A DNA stretch of 64,000 nt from the NCBI RefSeq assembly GCF_000429925.1, contig NZ_AUCU01000031.1, positions 1 through 64,000 of the forward strand. The letters are read 5' to 3'. The position numbers and the translations under genes are program-made. The notes below the pieces were generated by a model. It was not told the DNA's origin and ran no database searches. It saw nothing but the letters and a program-made list of their open reading frames with translations. The DNA is from Desulfatirhabdium butyrativorans DSM 18734 (GTDB taxonomy: Bacteria; Desulfobacterota; Desulfobacteria; Desulfobacterales; Desulfatirhabdiaceae). Of this stretch, positions 2,558 to 29,332 are shown piece by piece. Numbering within the stretch: position 1 is the first letter of the stretch; the number at the start of each line of letters is the position of its first letter.

Positions 2558-3220
2558 TCATTGCAAAACAAACTCGGGTTTTTTTGCCTTCTTTTCCCAA
2601 TCTTCAATCGCCGCATCCGACGGTACGCTTTCCCAGCCCGATATCATGGCCTTGATATGGGCACTGATACTATGTCCTGTTGTCGTCATGTAGACATGGA
2701 CGATGATGAACGAAATAATGGCAAACGCGCCTGCCATGTGCACGACGGCAACCCAGTTCAGGGAAAGCCTCGAAAGGCCCCATGTTCCCCATGAATTGTA
2801 TCCCCAGTACAGCATGCCGCTGACCATCTGCACCGGCAGCAGGAAGGCAGCGAGCGACAGATAGACCAGACGCTGCAGGGGATTGTGTTTGGCATCCTTC
2901 CGTTTGGGTACCGGATGAGGCTCCCCCTTGAAAATGCCATAGCCATAGTAGCGGATCATGGCGAACATTTTACGTGTCGTCGGCACATACTGCCGCCATT
3001 CCCCGCTGGTAAACACCCAGAAAACGAAGAATGCGAATGCCACCAGCCAGGTGATGCCGAGCGTGTTGTGCAGCCAGACGGCCCTTTCGAAGCCGAAAAG
3101 ACTGTAGAGACCATGCACCTCGAGCCCCGTGACGAGCAGTACGACAATGACGGCCATCTGAAACCAGTGCCAGAAGCGCTCATAACGCGTGTACAAATAG
3201 ATGTTGACCAGATGCTCCAT
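2558..3220 (-). CDS. Membrane cytochrome b (formate dehydrogenase gamma / thiosulfate reductase type)
   Basis: A protein of 220 residues with four hydrophobic helices and conserved histidines fitting a di-haem b membrane subunit: FWHWF in helix 1, LHNTLG at helix 2, VVHMAG and VHVY in the last helix. Such subunits exchange electrons between menaquinol and a periplasmic partner. The start at 3220 is preceded by AAGGAG; a longer frame to 3301 lacks this and would overlap the upstream gene. The gene begins four bases after the stop of the octaheme cytochrome, so the two are very probably cotranscribed and work as one quinone-linked complex. Direction of electron flow cannot be told from sequence. 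Confidence 0.85.
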   Translation of the reverse strand: MEHLVNIYLYTRYERFWHWFQMAVIVVLLVTGLEVHGLYSLFGFERAVWLHNTLGITWLVAFAFFVFWVFTSGEWRQYVPTTRKMFAMIRYYGYGIFKGEPHPVPKRKDAKHNPLQRLVYLSLAAFLLPVQMVSGMLYWGYNSWGTWGLSRLSLNWVAVVHMAGAFAIISFIIVHVYMTTTGHSISAHIKAMISGWESVPSDAAIEDWEKKAKKPEFVLQ

Positions 3221-3224
3221 GGGA

Positions 3225-4871
3225 TCACGCTCCTTTGTTTCCACCGTTTTTGCCGTTTCTGCCGTTTGCAAAGACCCGCCCAAGCCCGTGAAGGCATACA
3301 CCGGCCAGGGAACCGATAACGACCAGCCATCCGATGGAATCCAGAATGTTCAAGCGATCCCTGCCCGGCATGTAGAACCCGGCCAGAGAGGCAAGCCTTC
3401 CGCCGTTTCGGGTATGGCACTCCGTACAGGACACCACATTTTCCCTGGGCGCCACCATGTGTGTCGTCGGCATCACATAGGTCGTTGAAATAAAGTCATA
3501 TTGTCCCGAATACGGAATCCCCAGTGCATTCTGGCCCCGCTGGATGGCATCCTGCCAGTTCAATGTCGTCCAGAAACCATGTTCCGTTGACAATAACGGA
3601 CCGACTACCGTCTTGTTGATCTTGTCGTAAGGCTGTTTGCCCCGATGGACTTTAAACGGGAAAATGCGCGATTTGGGGTCTTCCCGATCGCCCAGGGGGT
3701 GGCTCATGGCAACCGTCAATCCGGGATCGATGACATCCTTGGCAGTCACGGACTGGATGGAACCATTGAACCAGAAATATTCGGGCTTGACATGCTTCTC
3801 CCATCGCATGGCGCCTTTGATGGACAAATAGCTGTCCTTGCCCAACTCGTCTTCTTCCTTGTACGGTTTGCCGTCCTTGAGTTTTCCGGCCTGCGACCAG
3901 TCCCACATCATCTTGGTGGGGTTGACGCGCGCGAAGGTCGGAATGTGACAACTCTGGCAGGCGACCTTATCCGTGTGGTCGTTGGCCTTGTGACCGGGTT
4001 TGTGGGGGGTCGCACTGTGACAGGATTCGCAGGTGATTTTCGGGGCAAGATCGTCCTGGATCAGGCTTTTTCGTTCGGTCGCAGCAGGCGCCGTATAGAT
4101 TCTTCCGGCAACCTGATGCTGAATGGTGGTATGGCATCGTACACACTCGAAATTCCTGCCATCCGTCCCCATATGGACATCGAGAGCTTTGTTGGGCATT
4201 GCCATCGATGAATCCAGATCTCCGTGTTTGACGCCGTCTCCCCCGCCTCCGTAGAAGTGGCAAGTGCCGCAATTTTTCCGGGTCGGCCTGCCAATGCTTT
4301 GCGCCGCCGTCTGAACCTGGGAGAGGATTTCGGCATAGATTTCCTTGGATCCCTCGTCCGTTTGATCCTTCAGCGCATTCAAATCTTCAAATGCTTCGTC
4401 CCATTTCACCTCTTTCTGTCCATGGCAAACCAGGCAGTTGACGACCTTGCGTTCACCATTCCAGGATGGATGGCAGGAAAAGCAGCTCTTGTCCGCTCCC
4501 TTGTTGGTGGAAATACAGAAGTTGTTGACGGAATATTGACCTTTGCCCATTTCCACACCCTTGGCGTTCTTGCCCGCATCCCATGTCCAATGGATGGTCT
4601 TGTGGAACTGCGTTTCCGCCTCGGAATGACAGGAAAGACAGGCTTCGGTGATCTGAGCCCCCGACGTGAAAGCCTGCTTCAATGCGGCATGTTTGCTGTG
4701 GTCGCTGGTTGTCCATTGCTCGTAGGATTTGGTGGCCTGAACCGCCATGGTCCTGCCGGGAGCCGTATCGACCCCGATCTCTGCCGCCGACAGATCCATC
4801 GGCCCGGCAAGCATCAGCGAAACTCCCCACAGCCAAACCCATACGGAATAGGTGACACTGGAGCCTTTCAT
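3225..4871 (-). CDS. Octaheme c-type cytochrome, tetrathionate-reductase (OTR) family
   Basis: A secreted protein of 548 residues with eight CxxCH haem sites, at about residues 78, 130, 146, 201, 243, 281, 305 and 482. A signal peptide opens the protein (hydrophobic stretch ending near DLSAAE), and a C-terminal membrane helix lies at about 508-530. The spacing and flanking sequence resemble the octaheme tetrathionate reductase family, whose Shewanella member reduces tetrathionate, nitrite and hydroxylamine in vitro; the physiological substrate here is not known. The start at 4871 is chosen because AGGAGG lies just upstream and a signal peptide follows. The adjacent cytochrome b would link it to the quinone pool. 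Likely under sigma-54 control through the promoter near 5530. Confidence 0.85.
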   Translation of the reverse strand: MKGSSVTYSVWVWLWGVSLMLAGPMDLSAAEIGVDTAPGRTMAVQATKSYEQWTTSDHSKHAALKQAFTSGAQITEACLSCHSEAETQFHKTIHWTWDAGKNAKGVEMGKGQYSVNNFCISTNKGADKSCFSCHPSWNGERKVVNCLVCHGQKEVKWDEAFEDLNALKDQTDEGSKEIYAEILSQVQTAAQSIGRPTRKNCGTCHFYGGGGDGVKHGDLDSSMAMPNKALDVHMGTDGRNFECVRCHTTIQHQVAGRIYTAPAATERKSLIQDDLAPKITCESCHSATPHKPGHKANDHTDKVACQSCHIPTFARVNPTKMMWDWSQAGKLKDGKPYKEEDELGKDSYLSIKGAMRWEKHVKPEYFWFNGSIQSVTAKDVIDPGLTVAMSHPLGDREDPKSRIFPFKVHRGKQPYDKINKTVVGPLLSTEHGFWTTLNWQDAIQRGQNALGIPYSGQYDFISTTYVMPTTHMVAPRENVVSCTECHTRNGGRLASLAGFYMPGRDRLNILDSIGWLVVIGSLAGVCLHGLGRVFANGRNGKNGGNKGA

Positions 4872-23547: not shown

Positions 23548-24277
23548 GACACACTCTCCTTCTTCCATTCGGTTGCCTATCCCACGGTCAGGCCGTGTGG
23601 TTTTCTCCGCTATGTTCATGGCGGCGGCGTCGCCCCCAGGCATACAAATCTGGCTGTCATTCCGGCAGAAGCCTCGGGTCCGTCATTCCGGCGAAAGCCC
23701 GCCCGTGGCGGGAGGAATCCAGAACAATGGTCTACGCGGGACCTCGTAGGGGCGACCGGCCGGTCGCCCCTACAGGCTGCCGACTGCCGACCACTCACTG
23801 CACAATGCCGTATTTTCAGGATAAATGTTAATGGCGGTGTCGCCGCCGCCGGCGATGAAAATAGGCCAGAAACCCATAGCCTATTGCCCATAGCCCATAG
23901 CCTGCATTTTCACGATAAATAATCTCTAGCAAAAACAGCGCCAATGGCTGAATGTTGGATAACCAGAAGAATTTAAAGGATATGCTGATGATAGGGATGA
24001 AGGTTGGCAACGAAGAGCGGACCGTTTAGATGCGTATGTGCGACTCGACTTCAAGCAGATGTCGCAGATATGAGACTGGATCGGGGAGAGGGGCTTGATT
24101 TCCGTCGCGAACGTGCACGCCTGGTCAATACGATTCCGGACGATGGATCCAGTCGAGCAGGGGGGAGGGGGGCTTGGTCATCCAAATTCGGATCATGCCG
24201 ATAGAAAAGCCCAGCCTCGGGTGCCCCGTGCACAGACGATGCGCTGCCCCGAATCAGGGTTTCCGTTCAGATGCGAT
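23548..24277. other. Repeat-rich gap
   Basis: 730 bases with no supportable gene. Contents in order: CCGGCGAAAGCC-type repeats (23656-23724), the GC-rich palindrome (23746-23773), a TTTTCATC/ATCGTGAAAAT element (about 23826-23920) containing a short run of GCCCATAG units (23877-23906), then ~350 bases in which I see nothing. Confidence 0.5.
23746..23773. repeat. Palindromic GC-rich repeat, copy 2
   Basis: GTAGGGGCGACCGG joined to its exact inverse CCGGTCGCCCCTAC; a perfect 28-base palindrome. See the copies at 258-284 and 58876-58903. Confidence 0.8.
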
Positions 24278-24589
24278 CTACCGGTGATGGCAGGACATTG
24301 TTTCGTGGATGTACTGCAACAGCGCCTGATGCAGTTTCCGGGAAGCGCTCTCGGGTATGGGAGAAGATTCATTCTGCATTGCGTGGCATGCGGCGACCGT
24401 TTGGCGCAGCGTTTCCATGCAGACGCGGCAGGGGATGCAGTCTTTGAGGTGATTTTCAATATGCTGAAAAGCGCTCTTGTCGAGCTCATTGTCAATATAT
24501 TCCGACAGATGCCGGAACAAGGCCAGGCATGCCTCGCTTGGATGGTCGGGATGGGAGGCCGTAGGCGTGGGAGAAGGCTCATTTGCCAT
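24278..24589 (-). CDS. Putative anti-sigma factor with zf-HC2 zinc finger
   Basis: 103 residues. The motif HIENHLKDCIPCRVC is the H-x3-C-x2-C zinc-binding anti-sigma (ZAS/zf-HC2) signature. No membrane helix is seen, so it is a soluble member that may respond to redox through its zinc thiolates. It overlaps the ECF sigma gene by 11 bases, the usual arrangement, and should bind and silence that sigma factor. Confidence 0.85.
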   Translation of the reverse strand: MANEPSPTPTASHPDHPSEACLALFRHLSEYIDNELDKSAFQHIENHLKDCIPCRVCMETLRQTVAACHAMQNESSPIPESASRKLHQALLQYIHETMSCHHR

Positions 24590-25193
24590 GATAAAAATAG
24601 TCCTGCATGTCCTTGCGAAGCTGCAACCTGGCCCGATGAAGGCGTACCTTGATGTTGGCCTCCGAGAGAGCCAGAATTTGAGCGGCTTCCTGCGTGCTGA
24701 ATCCTTCGATATCCCGAAGGACCAGCACCACCCGAAGGTTTTCCGGAAGATTGTGGATGGCTGTCTGCAGCCGGTTGCGCAACTCGTCGTTCAAAATCCG
24801 GTCGATGGGCAGCCGGGCCCATGCGGGGGACTCCGTCGGCATTTCACTGGATGCGGCTTCGATCATTTCCTCCAGGGACAGGGGCTCATCCGATGAAAAC
24901 CGGGATTTTCGCCTGATTTTCAAACAAGTGCTGGTTGCAATCTTATAGAGCCAATTCTTGAATCTGGATTCGAAACGGAAATCCTTCAGGTACCGGAACA
25001 CATTCAGAAACGTGTTCTGCACCATGTCTTCAGCATCCTGGGGATTTCGGCACATCCTTCGACCAAAGCCGTAGAGCTGGTTTTCATAGCGCTGAACCAG
25101 CTCGTCGAAGCGGGCGATATCTCCTTCATTGATAGCGCGAATCAGCGCCGTATCGTCGTCATTTTTTGTCGGTGGTTTTTCCGGGTGTTCCAT
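24579..25193 (-). CDS. ECF-type RNA polymerase sigma factor
   Basis: 204 residues. Region 2 (FDELVQRYENQLYGFGRRM, then DAEDMVQNTFLNVFRYL) binds core polymerase and the -10 element. Region 4 (LPENLRVVLVLRDIEGFST, then LALSEANIKVRLHRARLQL) holds the -35 helix-turn-helix. The overlapping zinc anti-sigma gene indicates control by protein sequestration. Its start lies inside the 3' end of the predicted small selenoprotein gene, so translation of the two is probably linked. Targets unknown. Confidence 0.9.
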   Translation of the reverse strand: MEHPEKPPTKNDDDTALIRAINEGDIARFDELVQRYENQLYGFGRRMCRNPQDAEDMVQNTFLNVFRYLKDFRFESRFKNWLYKIATSTCLKIRRKSRFSSDEPLSLEEMIEAASSEMPTESPAWARLPIDRILNDELRNRLQTAIHNLPENLRVVLVLRDIEGFSTQEAAQILALSEANIKVRLHRARLQLRKDMQDYFYHGK

Positions 25194-25320
25194 GAATCCT
25201 TTTGTCTGTCACCTGACAGCTATCCTTCAGTCAGGTGGGTATGCCGAGCTTGGGCAGGATATGCGCCTGAAGCAGATACCATACGCCAACGATGGCGATC
25301 ATCACGAGAATTTCCTGCAT
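25159..25320 (-). CDS. Predicted small membrane selenoprotein (TGA at 25231-25233 read as Sec)
   Basis: 53 residues if the TGA at codon 30 is decoded as Sec; 29 if it is a stop. Residues ~4-20 form one membrane helix, followed by the juxtamembrane ILPKLGIPT-U-LKDSCQV and a basic tail. The U-x4-C arrangement suggests a redox-active selenenylsulfide. From memory, relatives ending PKLGVPT with Cys or Sec occur in Desulfobacterota; I cannot verify this. Eleven bases after the TGA a CTGTC-AGGT-GACAG hairpin puts its loop 16 bases downstream, fitting bacterial SECIS rules. GGAAAGG precedes the start. The reading frame continues past the TGA for 23 codons and overlaps the ECF sigma start by 35 bases. 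A plain 29-residue peptide remains the alternative. Confidence 0.7.
25206..25219 (-). promoter_or_regulatory. Predicted bacterial SECIS element
   Basis: On the minus strand CTGTC-AGGT-GACAG: a 5-bp perfect stem with loop AGGT, starting 11 bases after the TGA at 25231-25233. The 11-base spacing and GGU in the loop match the Escherichia coli fdhF pattern. The stem is short, so a lower stem or tertiary help may be needed. Confidence 0.6.
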
Positions 25321-25466: not shown

Positions 25467-25844
25467 TCAACGGCAAGCGCTTACGGCTTCCTCCAGGCTG
25501 GAAACAATGGTCAGGAATTTGTCGAATCCTGCGATCTCGAAGACCTCGCGAACGTAATCGGCCATTTCGCAAAGAACGAACGCGCCATTTTTGCCTTTGA
25601 GCATTTTGGCGGTTTTGATCATGATGCGCAGACCGGCGCTGGTGATATAATCGAGTTTTTTACAATCGATGACCAGTCGAATGGTTGCTCCTTCGATCAG
25701 TTCCGAGATCTGGCGATCGAGTTCAGTGGAGGAGTTTGAATCCAGTCTTCCATTTAACGAAAGGATGCATACATCGTTGTGTCGGGTTTGAGCGATTTCC
25801 ATGTTGCTTCCTGCTGATGGTGCTTTGGCGTCCGATTCCGGCAT
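25467..25844 (-). CDS. STAS-domain anti-sigma-factor antagonist
   Basis: 125 residues. A short leader is followed by a STAS domain with LNGRLDSNSSTELD, the strand IRLVIDCKKLDYITSAGLRIM (the Ser in TSAG is the usual phosphorylation site) and a C-terminal helix. It resembles SpoIIAA/RsbV-type antagonists that bind a kinase/anti-sigma factor. GGAGGAG precedes the start at 25844; an inner ATG at 25802 is also possible. No serine kinase partner is present in the window. The upstream neighbour is a cyclic-nucleotide-binding-domain protein. Confidence 0.85.
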   Translation of the reverse strand: MPESDAKAPSAGSNMEIAQTRHNDVCILSLNGRLDSNSSTELDRQISELIEGATIRLVIDCKKLDYITSAGLRIMIKTAKMLKGKNGAFVLCEMADYVREVFEIAGFDKFLTIVSSLEEAVSACR

Positions 25845-26436: not shown

Positions 26437-28918
26437 AAAACGCTCCTTTTCGATCGATCAGCTCCTGGTAGGAGCCCATTTCAATAATCTTGCCTGCTTT
26501 CATGACGGCAATCTTGTCATAATTCTTGATGATATCCAGCCGGTGGGCCACCATAATGATGGTGGATTTGCCTTTCCACCGGGTTTCAATCAAATTCTGG
26601 ATGCGTGTCTGGGATTTGTTGTCCAGCGCGGAAGTGGCCTCATCCATGATGAGAATTTTGGGTTGTTTCAACAGGGTTCTGGCAATGGCGAGCTTCTGTT
26701 TCTGCCCGCCAGAAAGCCTGTCCCCCTTGCTGCCGACTTCGAATTGCATGCCGATTTCAACGAGCGTTTCCAGAAAGTCTTCTTCGATGATCAACTGAAT
26801 GATGCTCTGGTTGATGGTATCGATGGCTTTGGCATTGCTGGTGGTGATTTGCCCGAACAGAATATTGTTCAAAATGCTTTGGGAGAAAATGTATTCGGAA
26901 GTGTTGTAGAAGGAAAAAGCGCCGGGGTTTTCCCGGGATACATGTTCCCGGAACATAAATCGGCCATCGAGAATCATTTTTTCGAGGATTGGCGGAAGGG
27001 CGGCCAGCTTGTGTTTCCCTGGTTTGAAATGAAGTGCGAGGTTCAGCAGGAAGTCCTGATCTTTCTTGGGGAGCTGATTCAACCGGTAACGCTTCAGTTG
27101 ATCGACAATCCGGCGTACATCATCCCATTGATCCATCAAAATTGGGCTTTGCTCGAAAAACACGGCATCCGGTTCCAATTCGCCCAGAATATCGACCGTC
27201 TGTTTGCCAAGCTCGGCGCCAAGGCTGGTCAATGGCCGAACCAGCTCCGCTTCCGATAAAAATTCCATGAACCGTCTGTTCTGGGTCAGATCCCTGGCGC
27301 TGTAATCCGAGTTGTTTGGGGTGCCGAGGAAGAGGTTCTCGATAATATCGGCATGGTAGAGGTAGTGGTTTTCATCGAAGAATTCCACATAATTGGCGAG
27401 CGCTTCGCCGAACTCTTTCTGGAAATTCCGCCGGACGCGGACAAGCTCCCCGGCGAGATCGGCATGTTTTTCCCGTGAAAGCACGGTGTTGAAGCCGAAC
27501 TGCAACACATCGAGAAAAAGTCCGGTCTGGTGCAGTACGGCGATTTTGTCATCCCGGGAAGGCGCCGGCATGTTTTCGCGGATGTCCTTCAGGGCTTCGA
27601 TGGAATACAGCAGATTTTCTTCGATGGTTCCTGAAAAGGTAAACGGCGCCTGAGACACGAACCCCATGTTGTTGACCATGTCGTTCTTGGTCATTTCCAG
27701 CACTTCATGACCGTCGATCAGGATATGGCCATCCGTATAGGTGTAAAGCTGCCCGATGCACAGGGCCAGGGTGCTTTTCCCGCTCCCGGAATACCCGATC
27801 AGGGCCAGGGATTCCCCGGGCTTGAGGGAAAGGGAAATATCTTCCAGCAACTGGATGCCGCTTTCACTGACAAACGAGAGGTTTTGCACCTCGATGGCGC
27901 CGCTCAGCTCGTAGGCTTGCCTTGTTTTATCTTCAATCTGGAACTCAACGGGGGTATCGAAATATTCCATGGTCCGTTTATAGCTGACAATAGCATCCAT
28001 GTATACCTGATAGAAATCGATCAGCTCCTTCCAGGGATCGTAGAGTTTTTCCTGGGCGGACAAAAACGCGACCATGGCGCCCAGTTCCAATTTTCCGTTC
28101 ATGGCCAGGTATCCGCCCAGCAGAAAAATGATGAAGGGACCCAGGTTGACGAAGAAATTGTTACCGACCTTGATGGCTTGTTTATACACATTCCATACAA
28201 GCCTGATTTTGTACATCTTGTGAACCAGACGGGAGAACCGCTGGTTTTCAACCTTGAAGGTGCCATTTCCCTGGATTTCATGAATACCGCTGATGGTTTC
28301 GCCGATCTTGCTCGACATGGTCCGGGTGGCATCCACCCGTTTTTTATTGGCCTGGTTGGCGCGTTTTTGAAGAATTGGGATCAGAAAAACGATGACTGGA
28401 TAAATGGAAAAGGAAATGGCGGCCAGAAGCAGGTTCTGATGAATCAGGTACCCCGCGAATGTCAGCAATGTCAGGACATTGATCAGCGGTGTAGCGATGG
28501 CCTGCCCTGCGTAGGATCCCGCGGTGGCCAGTTCTGTAACGAGCGCAGAAACGACCATGCCCGGCTGGGCCTTTCGGAAGAAACTCAGAGGTAGGGTGAT
28601 GATGTGCTCATAGAGCGCATTTCGCATGGATGCGAGTACGCGCTCCGAAATCCAGGTCTGGATGAGGGAAATGCAAAATTTCAAGCCGCTGGAAAACAGG
28701 ACTGCTGCCAGATAAATGAGACAGTATCGAATCAACAGGTCCATTTTGCGCAACCCGATCGCCTCGTTTACGATCCGTTTCTGCATCTCGAGCGGGATAA
28801 CCCGGATAAAAACGGTAATGGCGATGAGAACGACCAGAAGCATCTGAAGCTTGAGATTTCCTGCGATGACCCAGGAAAACAGGGATCGCTTGACGATGGG
28901 ATGTGTCGGAGGTTTCAT
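26411..28918 (-). CDS. ABC exporter with a ~250-residue insertion in the ATPase domain
   Basis: 835 residues. Residues 1-320 form a type IV ABC membrane domain with six helices. The nucleotide-binding domain starts at ~340, with Walker A GYSGSGKST (375) and Q-loop FVSQ (420). The signature LSGGQ is not reached until 735, followed by Walker B ILIMDE (755) and the H-loop AHRL (791). In ordinary exporters Q-loop and signature are ~55 residues apart; here they are ~310 apart. The insert is charged and helical and seems to repeat the post-Q-loop phrase (ENLLYS at 434, ENLFLG at 527, NNILFG at 684). The catalytic motifs are intact, so the protein should be active. The overlapping nucleotide-binding-domain gene suggests regulated export. 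Substrate unknown. Confidence 0.85.
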   Translation of the reverse strand: MKPPTHPIVKRSLFSWVIAGNLKLQMLLVVLIAITVFIRVIPLEMQKRIVNEAIGLRKMDLLIRYCLIYLAAVLFSSGLKFCISLIQTWISERVLASMRNALYEHIITLPLSFFRKAQPGMVVSALVTELATAGSYAGQAIATPLINVLTLLTFAGYLIHQNLLLAAISFSIYPVIVFLIPILQKRANQANKKRVDATRTMSSKIGETISGIHEIQGNGTFKVENQRFSRLVHKMYKIRLVWNVYKQAIKVGNNFFVNLGPFIIFLLGGYLAMNGKLELGAMVAFLSAQEKLYDPWKELIDFYQVYMDAIVSYKRTMEYFDTPVEFQIEDKTRQAYELSGAIEVQNLSFVSESGIQLLEDISLSLKPGESLALIGYSGSGKSTLALCIGQLYTYTDGHILIDGHEVLEMTKNDMVNNMGFVSQAPFTFSGTIEENLLYSIEALKDIRENMPAPSRDDKIAVLHQTGLFLDVLQFGFNTVLSREKHADLAGELVRVRRNFQKEFGEALANYVEFFDENHYLYHADIIENLFLGTPNNSDYSARDLTQNRRFMEFLSEAELVRPLTSLGAELGKQTVDILGELEPDAVFFEQSPILMDQWDDVRRIVDQLKRYRLNQLPKKDQDFLLNLALHFKPGKHKLAALPPILEKMILDGRFMFREHVSRENPGAFSFYNTSEYIFSQSILNNILFGQITTSNAKAIDTINQSIIQLIIEEDFLETLVEIGMQFEVGSKGDRLSGGQKQKLAIARTLLKQPKILIMDEATSALDNKSQTRIQNLIETRWKGKSTIIMVAHRLDIIKNYDKIAVMKAGKIIEMGSYQELIDRKGAFYELVGAKR

Positions 28919-29332
28919 GGCTGACCTGGATGAAAAGGTGCGGGGCCTTGAGGCATCGATATGGATTCGGGAAGTGTCGTGATTGTTTGCCTCTTTTTGT
29001 ACCGGGGATCATGCACCGCCGCCTCCGGAGATGAAAATCCGGCAGACATTCCGATGGCAGCCCCGGGTCGTCATTCCGGCGAAATCCCGCCCGTGGCGGG
29101 AGAAATCCAGTTCTGTGGTGGCGGGATTTTGACAGGTTCTGGACCCCTCGTGCCAGAGGCATGATTTCGCCGGGGTGAGGGGCCCAACTGCCGACTGCCC
29201 ACCGCAGTATTTTCCCGATAAATTCATTCAGTCGGGTGCTCTGGCAACGATTCTTCTGGCTGGCTTTGATCCGATGCGCTTGTTGAAACTATAAAAAAGT
29301 GTTATGGAGGTGTCAAGGTAAGATATGGGTTC
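28919..29332. other. Divergent gap with repeats upstream of kdsD
   Basis: 414 bases. It contains TTTTCATC-type ends (29030-29040 and 29210-29223) around a pair of CCGGCGAAATCC / GATTTCGCCGGGG units (29065-29165), that is one repeat family nested in another. Promoters for the ABC gene (minus) and kdsD (plus) must lie here, but none stands out. Confidence 0.45.

Follow-up and report, generated by a model that had tools for sequence, protein, structure and literature searches.

Gene content of the locus

The window, the whole stretch of DNA analysed here, comprises 64,000 nt (64 kb) from Desulfatirhabdium butyrativorans DSM 18734. It contains, in this order, genes for a cNMP-binding protein, a STAS protein, a small predicted selenoprotein, an ECF sigma factor and a zinc anti-sigma factor (Table 1). 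The selenoprotein frame opens with an ATG (25320-25318), runs for 29 codons to an in-frame TGA (25233-25231) and continues for another 23 codons to a TGA stop (25161-25159). The first-pass annotation, made from the letters alone, had proposed a 53-residue, single-pass membrane selenoprotein read through this TGA; its coordinates were right for the minus strand, relatives appear to read through the same codon, and a single hydrophobic helix was found at residues 4-22. On the plus strand, the same coordinates give an unrelated reading. The proposed placement upstream of an ECF sigma factor holds in the window, where the sigma start codon (ATG 25193) overlaps the final 11 codons of the selenoprotein ORF. 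Family-wide it is confined to one branch: in 19 of 46 named loci, with start codons chosen mechanically, the last 32-74 nt of the selenoprotein ORF overlap the beginning of a sigma ORF.

The predicted zinc anti-sigma factor carries an H-x3-C-x2-C motif, as read from the ORF translation. The D. butyrativorans genome encodes a tRNA-Sec (77.1 bits versus a gathering score of 47 bits) and SelB (E 2.2e-106). Elsewhere in the window, the stretch PPRAGFRRND is common to the ORFs at 23616-23891 and 28608-29162 (both minus) and resembles an interspersed intergenic repeat.

Table 1. Features of the selenoprotein locus in the 64-kb window.
Feature	Position	Strand	Basis or remark
Predicted selenoprotein ORF, 53 codons, MQEILVMIAIVGVWYLLQAHILPKLGIPT-U-LKDSCQVTDKRIHGTPGKTTDKK	25162..25320	minus	stop TGA at 25159-25161
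In-frame TGA, codon 30, predicted to be read as Sec	25231..25233	minus	TGA/Cys pattern of relatives; tRNA-Sec and SelB in the genome
SECIS-like hairpin CTGTC-AGGT-GACAG, loop 16 nt after the TGA	25206..25219	minus	weak alone; compensatory change in relatives
Single hydrophobic helix, residues 4-22	25255..25311	minus	Kyte-Doolittle 19-residue maximum 2.21, from residue 4
Cys35, at Sec +5; codon shared with the hairpin stem	25216..25218	minus	Cys at +5 in 201/234 members; stem pair 18-25
ECF sigma-70 factor	24579..25193	minus	TIGR02937, PF04542, PF08281
zf-HC2/RsrA-like zinc anti-sigma factor	24278..24589	minus	TIGR03988 (E 1.8e-5) and PF13490 (E 0.0015), both below curated cut-offs
STAS anti-anti-sigma protein, upstream	25467..25844	minus	TIGR00377, PF01740

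Relatives with an in-frame TGA occur in three phyla

The first-pass annotation had named two results that would speak against it, a loss of conservation beyond the TGA and homologues ending at this codon. Neither was obtained: the similarity continued past this codon in six of the seven other genomes of the same taxonomic family, whose matches to the window protein (E < 1e-10, 45-51% identity) each contained one internal TGA. By profile search, 123 of 146 genomes of the order matched at E <= 0.1 and 121 at E <= 1e-8, with a TGA inside every one among the matches listed at the latter threshold. Across the phylum, 167 of 395 genomes matched at E <= 0.001, or 165 once two chance matches were subtracted. 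These two emerged when 24 genomes with weak best matches (17 of them outside the matches listed) were searched again and read by eye: 22 had TGA at the Sec position, and in the other two (G151 and G218) the match was a chance helix. The corresponding candidates L146 (G218), L150 and L151 (both G151), in which only the hydrophobic helix matched, were dropped.

A pattern scan of named species genomes yielded 46 loci, all with TGA. Most were from Desulfobacterota, and one locus each came from an Eisenbacteria MAG, a Geobacteraceae MAG and a Terriglobia MAG. In two phylum samples centred on such MAG loci, which we infer to represent Acidobacteriota and Eisenbacteria, 56 of 247 and 6 of 47 genomes, respectively, matched at E <= 0.001; each of the six was listed with TGA in the match table. 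A search of plasmids and viral contigs found no relative. Tandem pairs of selenoprotein genes, the two copies about 100 bases apart, were seen at two places (G045:C244:4657-5031 and G099:C62:29017-29382). As judged by sequence similarity, the window gene is a member of a widespread family with hundreds of related genes in three bacterial phyla.

The reading frame on both sides of the TGA

Among 193 profile hits in the fetched loci, 192 had U at the motif, and the remaining one, L135, had one extra residue before U. We kept 165 distinct members; L135, which also has TGA, was excluded by the motif filter. With loci added later, the set grew to 234 distinct members, 232 with TGA and two with a Cys codon at this position. 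At least ten in-frame codons were open after the TGA in 165/165 members, compared to 39% and 65% in the other two frames, a figure that is partly built in because these members were found by homology.

Changes by codon position were counted in 37 independent pairs of members. At the first, second and third positions, they numbered 145/48/323 upstream of the TGA; downstream of it, codons 1-9 had 33/17/42 and codons 10-16 had 61/48/84. This pattern clearly points to coding before the TGA and more weakly to coding after it, as would be expected under a hairpin followed by a free tail. The Sec position is constant across relatives while its surroundings drift. A ribosome-binding-like sequence preceded the start in 171 of 215 cases versus 144 of 702 random places. 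The final stops of the 165 members were TGA in 64, TAA in 60 and TAG in 41; since 64 of them end with TGA, this codon is still a stop in member genomes.

A hairpin downstream of the TGA is maintained by compensatory change

The hairpin CTGTC-AGGT-GACAG that had been described 11 bases after the TGA is present at 25219-25206, its first base following 11 intervening nucleotides. Folded alone it reached -6.0 kcal/mol, and 54 of 200 shuffles folded equally well; a 66-nt piece of the window preferred another fold that pairs across the TGA, with 7 of 200 shuffles equally good. According to the bacterial SECIS rules in the available part of a review (PMC13188914), the stem has at least 4 pairs and an energy of at most -7.5 kcal/mol, and the loop has 3-9 nt, a G in its first two places and a distance of 16-37 nt from the UGA. 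In a scan with these rules, the place and loop of the window hairpin were right and its energy was -6.9 versus the published cut-off of -7.5. Because the hairpin was ordinary when taken alone and fell short of the energy cut-off, the question could not be settled from the window alone.

The hairpin conservation that the first-pass annotation had pointed to as a check was apparent at the level of the family. The SECIS rules were passed by 133 of the 165 members, compared to 39, 43, 48, 44 and 52 in five synonymous recodings of the same set; the other controls gave 22-39/165 for base shuffles, 86/259 for ordinary TGA stops and 160/400 for positions inside ORFs. A later GC-rich, mostly acidobacterial set behaved likewise, with 67/69 members passing versus 37-48/69 recodings and 112/203 ordinary stops.

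Two registers of the hairpin were distinguished, one with the loop at +16 (86 members, with a C-Q/R-V/L/A motif) and one with the loop at +23 (53 members, with other motifs); 23 further distinct members fell in neither class. In the +16 register, 79% of the stem cells were paired, compared to 27-65% for slid stems and maxima of 73% for shuffled and 70% for recoded sequences; double changes appeared in 63 cells versus 14-33 for slid stems. Pair 18-25 of this stem joins the silent third base of the Cys codon to the opening base of the third codon after it; it was intact in 98% of these members, and its 26 double changes combine TGT with A or TGC with G. Because this pair is kept, Thr is replaced by Ala, Gly or Glu. 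In the +23 register, 69% of cells were paired versus 29-44% when slid, at most 57% when shuffled and at most 59% when recoded, with 90 double-change cells versus 28-41 when slid. Counting how many stem pairs had any double change did not tell true from slid stems (3 versus 2-4 in the +16 register, 6 versus 7 in the +23 register). Compensatory change maintains the hairpin downstream of the TGA, which reflects selection on the RNA separate from that on the protein; the hairpin also accounts for part of the CQVT conservation.

Comparison takes the finding beyond chance, as the relatives share a predicted readthrough codon, a constant Sec position and a covarying stem. We consider it nearly certain that the gene encodes a genuine selenoprotein, with predicted Sec insertion, of an apparently uncatalogued family.

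Sec and Cys forms and the occurrence of SelB

In the acidobacterial sample, SelB was detected in 165 of 247 genomes, and the family was present in 52 of these 165 versus 4 of the 82 genomes without detected SelB (Fisher p 6e-7, lists matched by eye). The same test is weak in Desulfobacterota because 375 of the 395 genomes have SelB; there the family occurred in 163/375 SelB-positive genomes versus 4/20 others (p 0.06, and the same when the two chance genomes were removed).

Cys homologues, the search for which had been suggested with the first-pass annotation, turned up twice, both times in genomes without detected SelB. One of the four acidobacterial genomes that carry the family without detected SelB (G717) had Cys at the Sec position. 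In its order, 60 of 150 genomes matched at E <= 0.01, including a second Cys form in G790, and SelB was detected in 125 of the 150, in neither G717 nor G790. Comparison of Cys and TGA forms against SelB in this order gave p 0.004, for 54 TGA and 2 Cys genomes, most of the 54 being called from the stop column of the match table and the weak matches G818, G841, G888 and G894 being left out. TGA forms in genomes without detected SelB were present in G585, G648, G657, G845 and G902, and in four more genomes of Desulfobacterota; incomplete MAGs are the likely cause in all of these. G648 (L235) and G657 (L252) are close relatives; for them and for G585 (L249), either incomplete assembly or lost machinery may apply.

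The two Cys forms paired with different Sec relatives (94/92 and 94/75) in a 77-member tree, and they formed one group in 0 of 200 bootstrap trees; the columns were few, the bootstrap had not settled and neither fork was strongly supported. This topology fits two separate Sec-to-Cys changes after loss of the machinery, and the strong branches would also allow a single origin. In one of the two Cys members, the hairpin still passes the SECIS rules.

Protein anatomy and predicted membrane orientation

The 165 members have a median of 29 residues before Sec. In the larger set of 234, Pro was followed directly by K or R in 225 members and T preceded U in 216. The U-x4-C arrangement proposed for the window protein proved to be the usual one, with Cys at +5 in 201 of 234 members; it is not universal, Cys being at +6 in 11 and no Cys following U in 8. 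In a divergent set of 28 members, Pro, Gly and Sec were the sole invariant columns.

The tail of the 165 members carried a mean of 5.4 K+R versus 3.6 D+E, and their first eight residues a mean of 0.59 K+R versus 0.81 D+E. By the positive-inside rule, which relates charge to membrane orientation, this pattern suggests an N-out, C-in protein whose tail faces the cytoplasm, with Sec just inside.

Gene neighbourhoods across the family

Neighbours were tallied in 130 loci; where a shorter locus carried an identical member, the named locus was left out. Related genomes are included, so the loci are not independent. The profiles were built from first-round clusters, and clusters were named by the Pfam matches of one or two representatives each, and by NCBIfam as well for the ECF sigma factor. 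Each set of three counts below gives all loci with the neighbour, those that have it on the same strand within 2 kb and, of these, those that have it within 400 nt. The FmdB-type zinc ribbon (PF09723, which we take to be FmdB) was found in 27/27/27 loci, a universal stress protein in 12/10/10, an ECF sigma factor in 15/11/10, thioredoxin in 14/10/6, ArsR in 10/8/6, DUF302 in 7/5/4, a YgaP-like protein in 9/6/4, CcdA in 7/3/1 and an RND pump in 8/6/1. In 71 of the 130 loci, none of these partner kinds, the RND pump apart, lay on the same strand within 2 kb. Two first-round clusters proved to be mixtures and were recounted with separate profiles: an 'ArsR' cluster of 27 loci, which combined ArsR, universal stress and YgaP-like proteins, and a thioredoxin cluster, which held TlpA-like and peroxiredoxin proteins.

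At L245, two genes lie upstream of that for the Cys form (3120-3275, minus): one encodes a pyridine nucleotide-disulfide oxidoreductase that bears a rhodanese domain, the other a YgaP-like (PF11127) protein whose last residues are GISTC. YgaP-like proteins also lie within 400 nt of the Sec forms at L250, L252, L262 and L300. These neighbours of both forms may provide a lead to sulfane sulfur chemistry, or to sulfur handling as a common role. In six loci (L162, L174, L184, L185, L190 and L202), all of which also have FmdB-type genes, a gene just 3' of the selenoprotein and on the same strand encodes a small, Cys-rich protein of about 68 residues (cluster 22, no Pfam match).

Proposed function and alternatives

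Our model is a SelB-decoded, membrane-anchored selenoprotein that probably acts as a selenol/thiol relay, and we put the probability of this explanation as a whole at about 0.7. SelB would decode the UGA at the hairpin directly downstream, a structure supported by covariation. The one N-terminal helix would anchor the protein in the inner membrane, the motif LP[K/R]-x-G-x-x-T-U would set Sec at the membrane face, and the short tail, basic on average, would carry the Cys that usually lies five residues past Sec. Sec could then attack an oxidant, disulfide, persulfide or metal(loid) at the membrane. The Cys, as the usual resolver, would resolve the adduct as a selenenylsulfide, to be reduced by the thioredoxin pool or a CcdA-type partner. 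In D. butyrativorans, the selenoprotein would work together with the zinc anti-sigma/ECF sigma module encoded after it. The redox relay itself, which the Sec/Cys pair, the two Cys-x4-Cys homologues and the neighbours suggest, stands at about even odds. Since no Cys follows Sec in 8 of 234 members, a resolving Cys within the protein is dispensable in some cases; in those members, it is presumed either that a partner resolves Sec or that resolving is needless.

That such Cys-less members exist would suit a metal ligand as well as a catalyst, and the main rival is a soft-metal or metalloid site in which Sec and Cys bind mercury, arsenic, copper or similar, as a sensor-chaperone or a trap instead of a redox catalyst. 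The FmdB-type zinc ribbons in 27 of 130 loci, the ArsR-type regulators in 10 (6 on the same strand within 400 nt) and the RND-type pumps in 8 (1 within 400 nt) are consistent with this idea. However, ArsR-fold regulators also sense redox, there is no conserved third ligand, and thioredoxin, CcdA and the zinc anti-sigma factor suit redox chemistry at least equally, so that we regard a metal site as unlikely. About the same standing is given to a small accessory subunit of a larger membrane complex, with Sec in a fixed bond to a partner. Its single helix, its near-constant length (median of 29 residues before U) and the restriction of invariance to Pro, Gly and Sec in the 28 divergent members would all look like docking, yet no one partner gene is common to most of the 130 loci.

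The weakness of the window hairpin, and its place just before the sigma start, could also suggest that no selenoprotein is made, and that a 29-residue membrane peptide ending at the TGA is followed by a regulatory hairpin for the next gene. This is very improbable in view of the in-frame conservation, the Cys homologues and the co-occurrence with SelB; moreover, TGA and hairpin are also found in loci without an adjoining sigma gene. Chance readthrough, a local reassignment of TGA or an assembly error has nothing but the short length of the frame in its favour. As the family occurs in hundreds of separate assemblies and 64 of 165 members end at a TGA that is still a stop, these explanations are scarcely credible. 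A rather doubtful extension of the selenoprotein reading is that the UGA also works as a selenium/redox switch, in which Sec supply sets sigma translation; beyond this branch, the family would be Sec-first, with Cys forms apparently derived from Sec on two occasions where SelB was lost, the opposite of the usual Cys-to-Sec view. The switch idea starts from the sigma/selenoprotein overlap conserved in the 19 named loci. With charged Sec-tRNA, ribosomes would read through, end 32 nt past the sigma start and melt the leader; in its absence, they would stop 37 nt before the sigma start.

Comparison with catalogued families and known systems

The available part of the 2026 review (PMC13188914) lists 119 bacterial selenoprotein families in its Table 1, none of which fits by name or motif. 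The window protein had no match in NCBIfam or Pfam. The matches of other members were isolated: for 35 members, the best NCBIfam E value was 0.024 (in one) and the best Pfam E value 0.0062 (in three), and for the 28 divergent members the best NCBIfam E value was 0.015 (in two). The NCBIfam models of the deep-Sep families DG, DW and DF, as named in the available review table, were absent from the hits of the scanned members. In its accessible text, the 2025 deep-Sep paper (PMC12013277) screened Desulfosarcina widdelii PP31 and gave 'DW' as the sole new family for this genome, which holds a member of the present family (L068). According to the same text, selenoproteins that lack Cys homologues could escape the method, and such homologues now seem to exist for all known ones. 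In the portions available, PMC1242214 used ORFs of at least 80-90 residues and PMC8318568 names other families. Nothing among the titles and abstract starts listed by searches of an open-access library suggested the family (subscription papers and supplements lay outside this scope), and a sequence-motif search in papers gave no match. The family is apparently uncatalogued. Since its members have about 50 residues and carry Sec in 232 of 234 cases, length limits and Cys-based filters would hide it, widespread as it is. Such a family implies that bacterial selenoproteomes are undercounted; it would provide a minimal bacterial membrane selenoprotein, built on a single helix, and a natural example of Sec giving way to Cys upon SelB loss.

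The catalogued thioredoxin-like selenoproteins with U-x-x-C share with the new family a nearby Cys after Sec, a SECIS-type hairpin and a presumed redox role (PMC13188914, available part). They differ in spacing, the present motif being U-x4-C. To our knowledge, a thioredoxin fold is impossible in about 50 residues with one helix. TsoA, the selenoprotein with the LULAxC motif (NF045695), likewise has a Cys a few residues after Sec, but its spacing is U-x3-C, its motif is another one and its model was absent from the hits of the scanned members. The YgaP-like transmembrane domain (PF11127, DUF2892) offers another likeness, in that the protein of this kind encoded next to a Cys homologue has G-I-S-T-C at its end, comparable to G-I-S-T-U; however, no member matched the domain in the Pfam scan, and only nine residues align, with 4.8 bits. 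Among eukaryotes, SELENOK and SELENOS are small selenoproteins that span the membrane once and carry Sec in a cytosolic tail; their decoding system is a different one. The SECIS of Escherichia coli fdhF starts 11 nt after the UGA and has an AGGU-type loop, like the window hairpin, whereas many family members differ from it in having the other hairpin, with its loop at +23.
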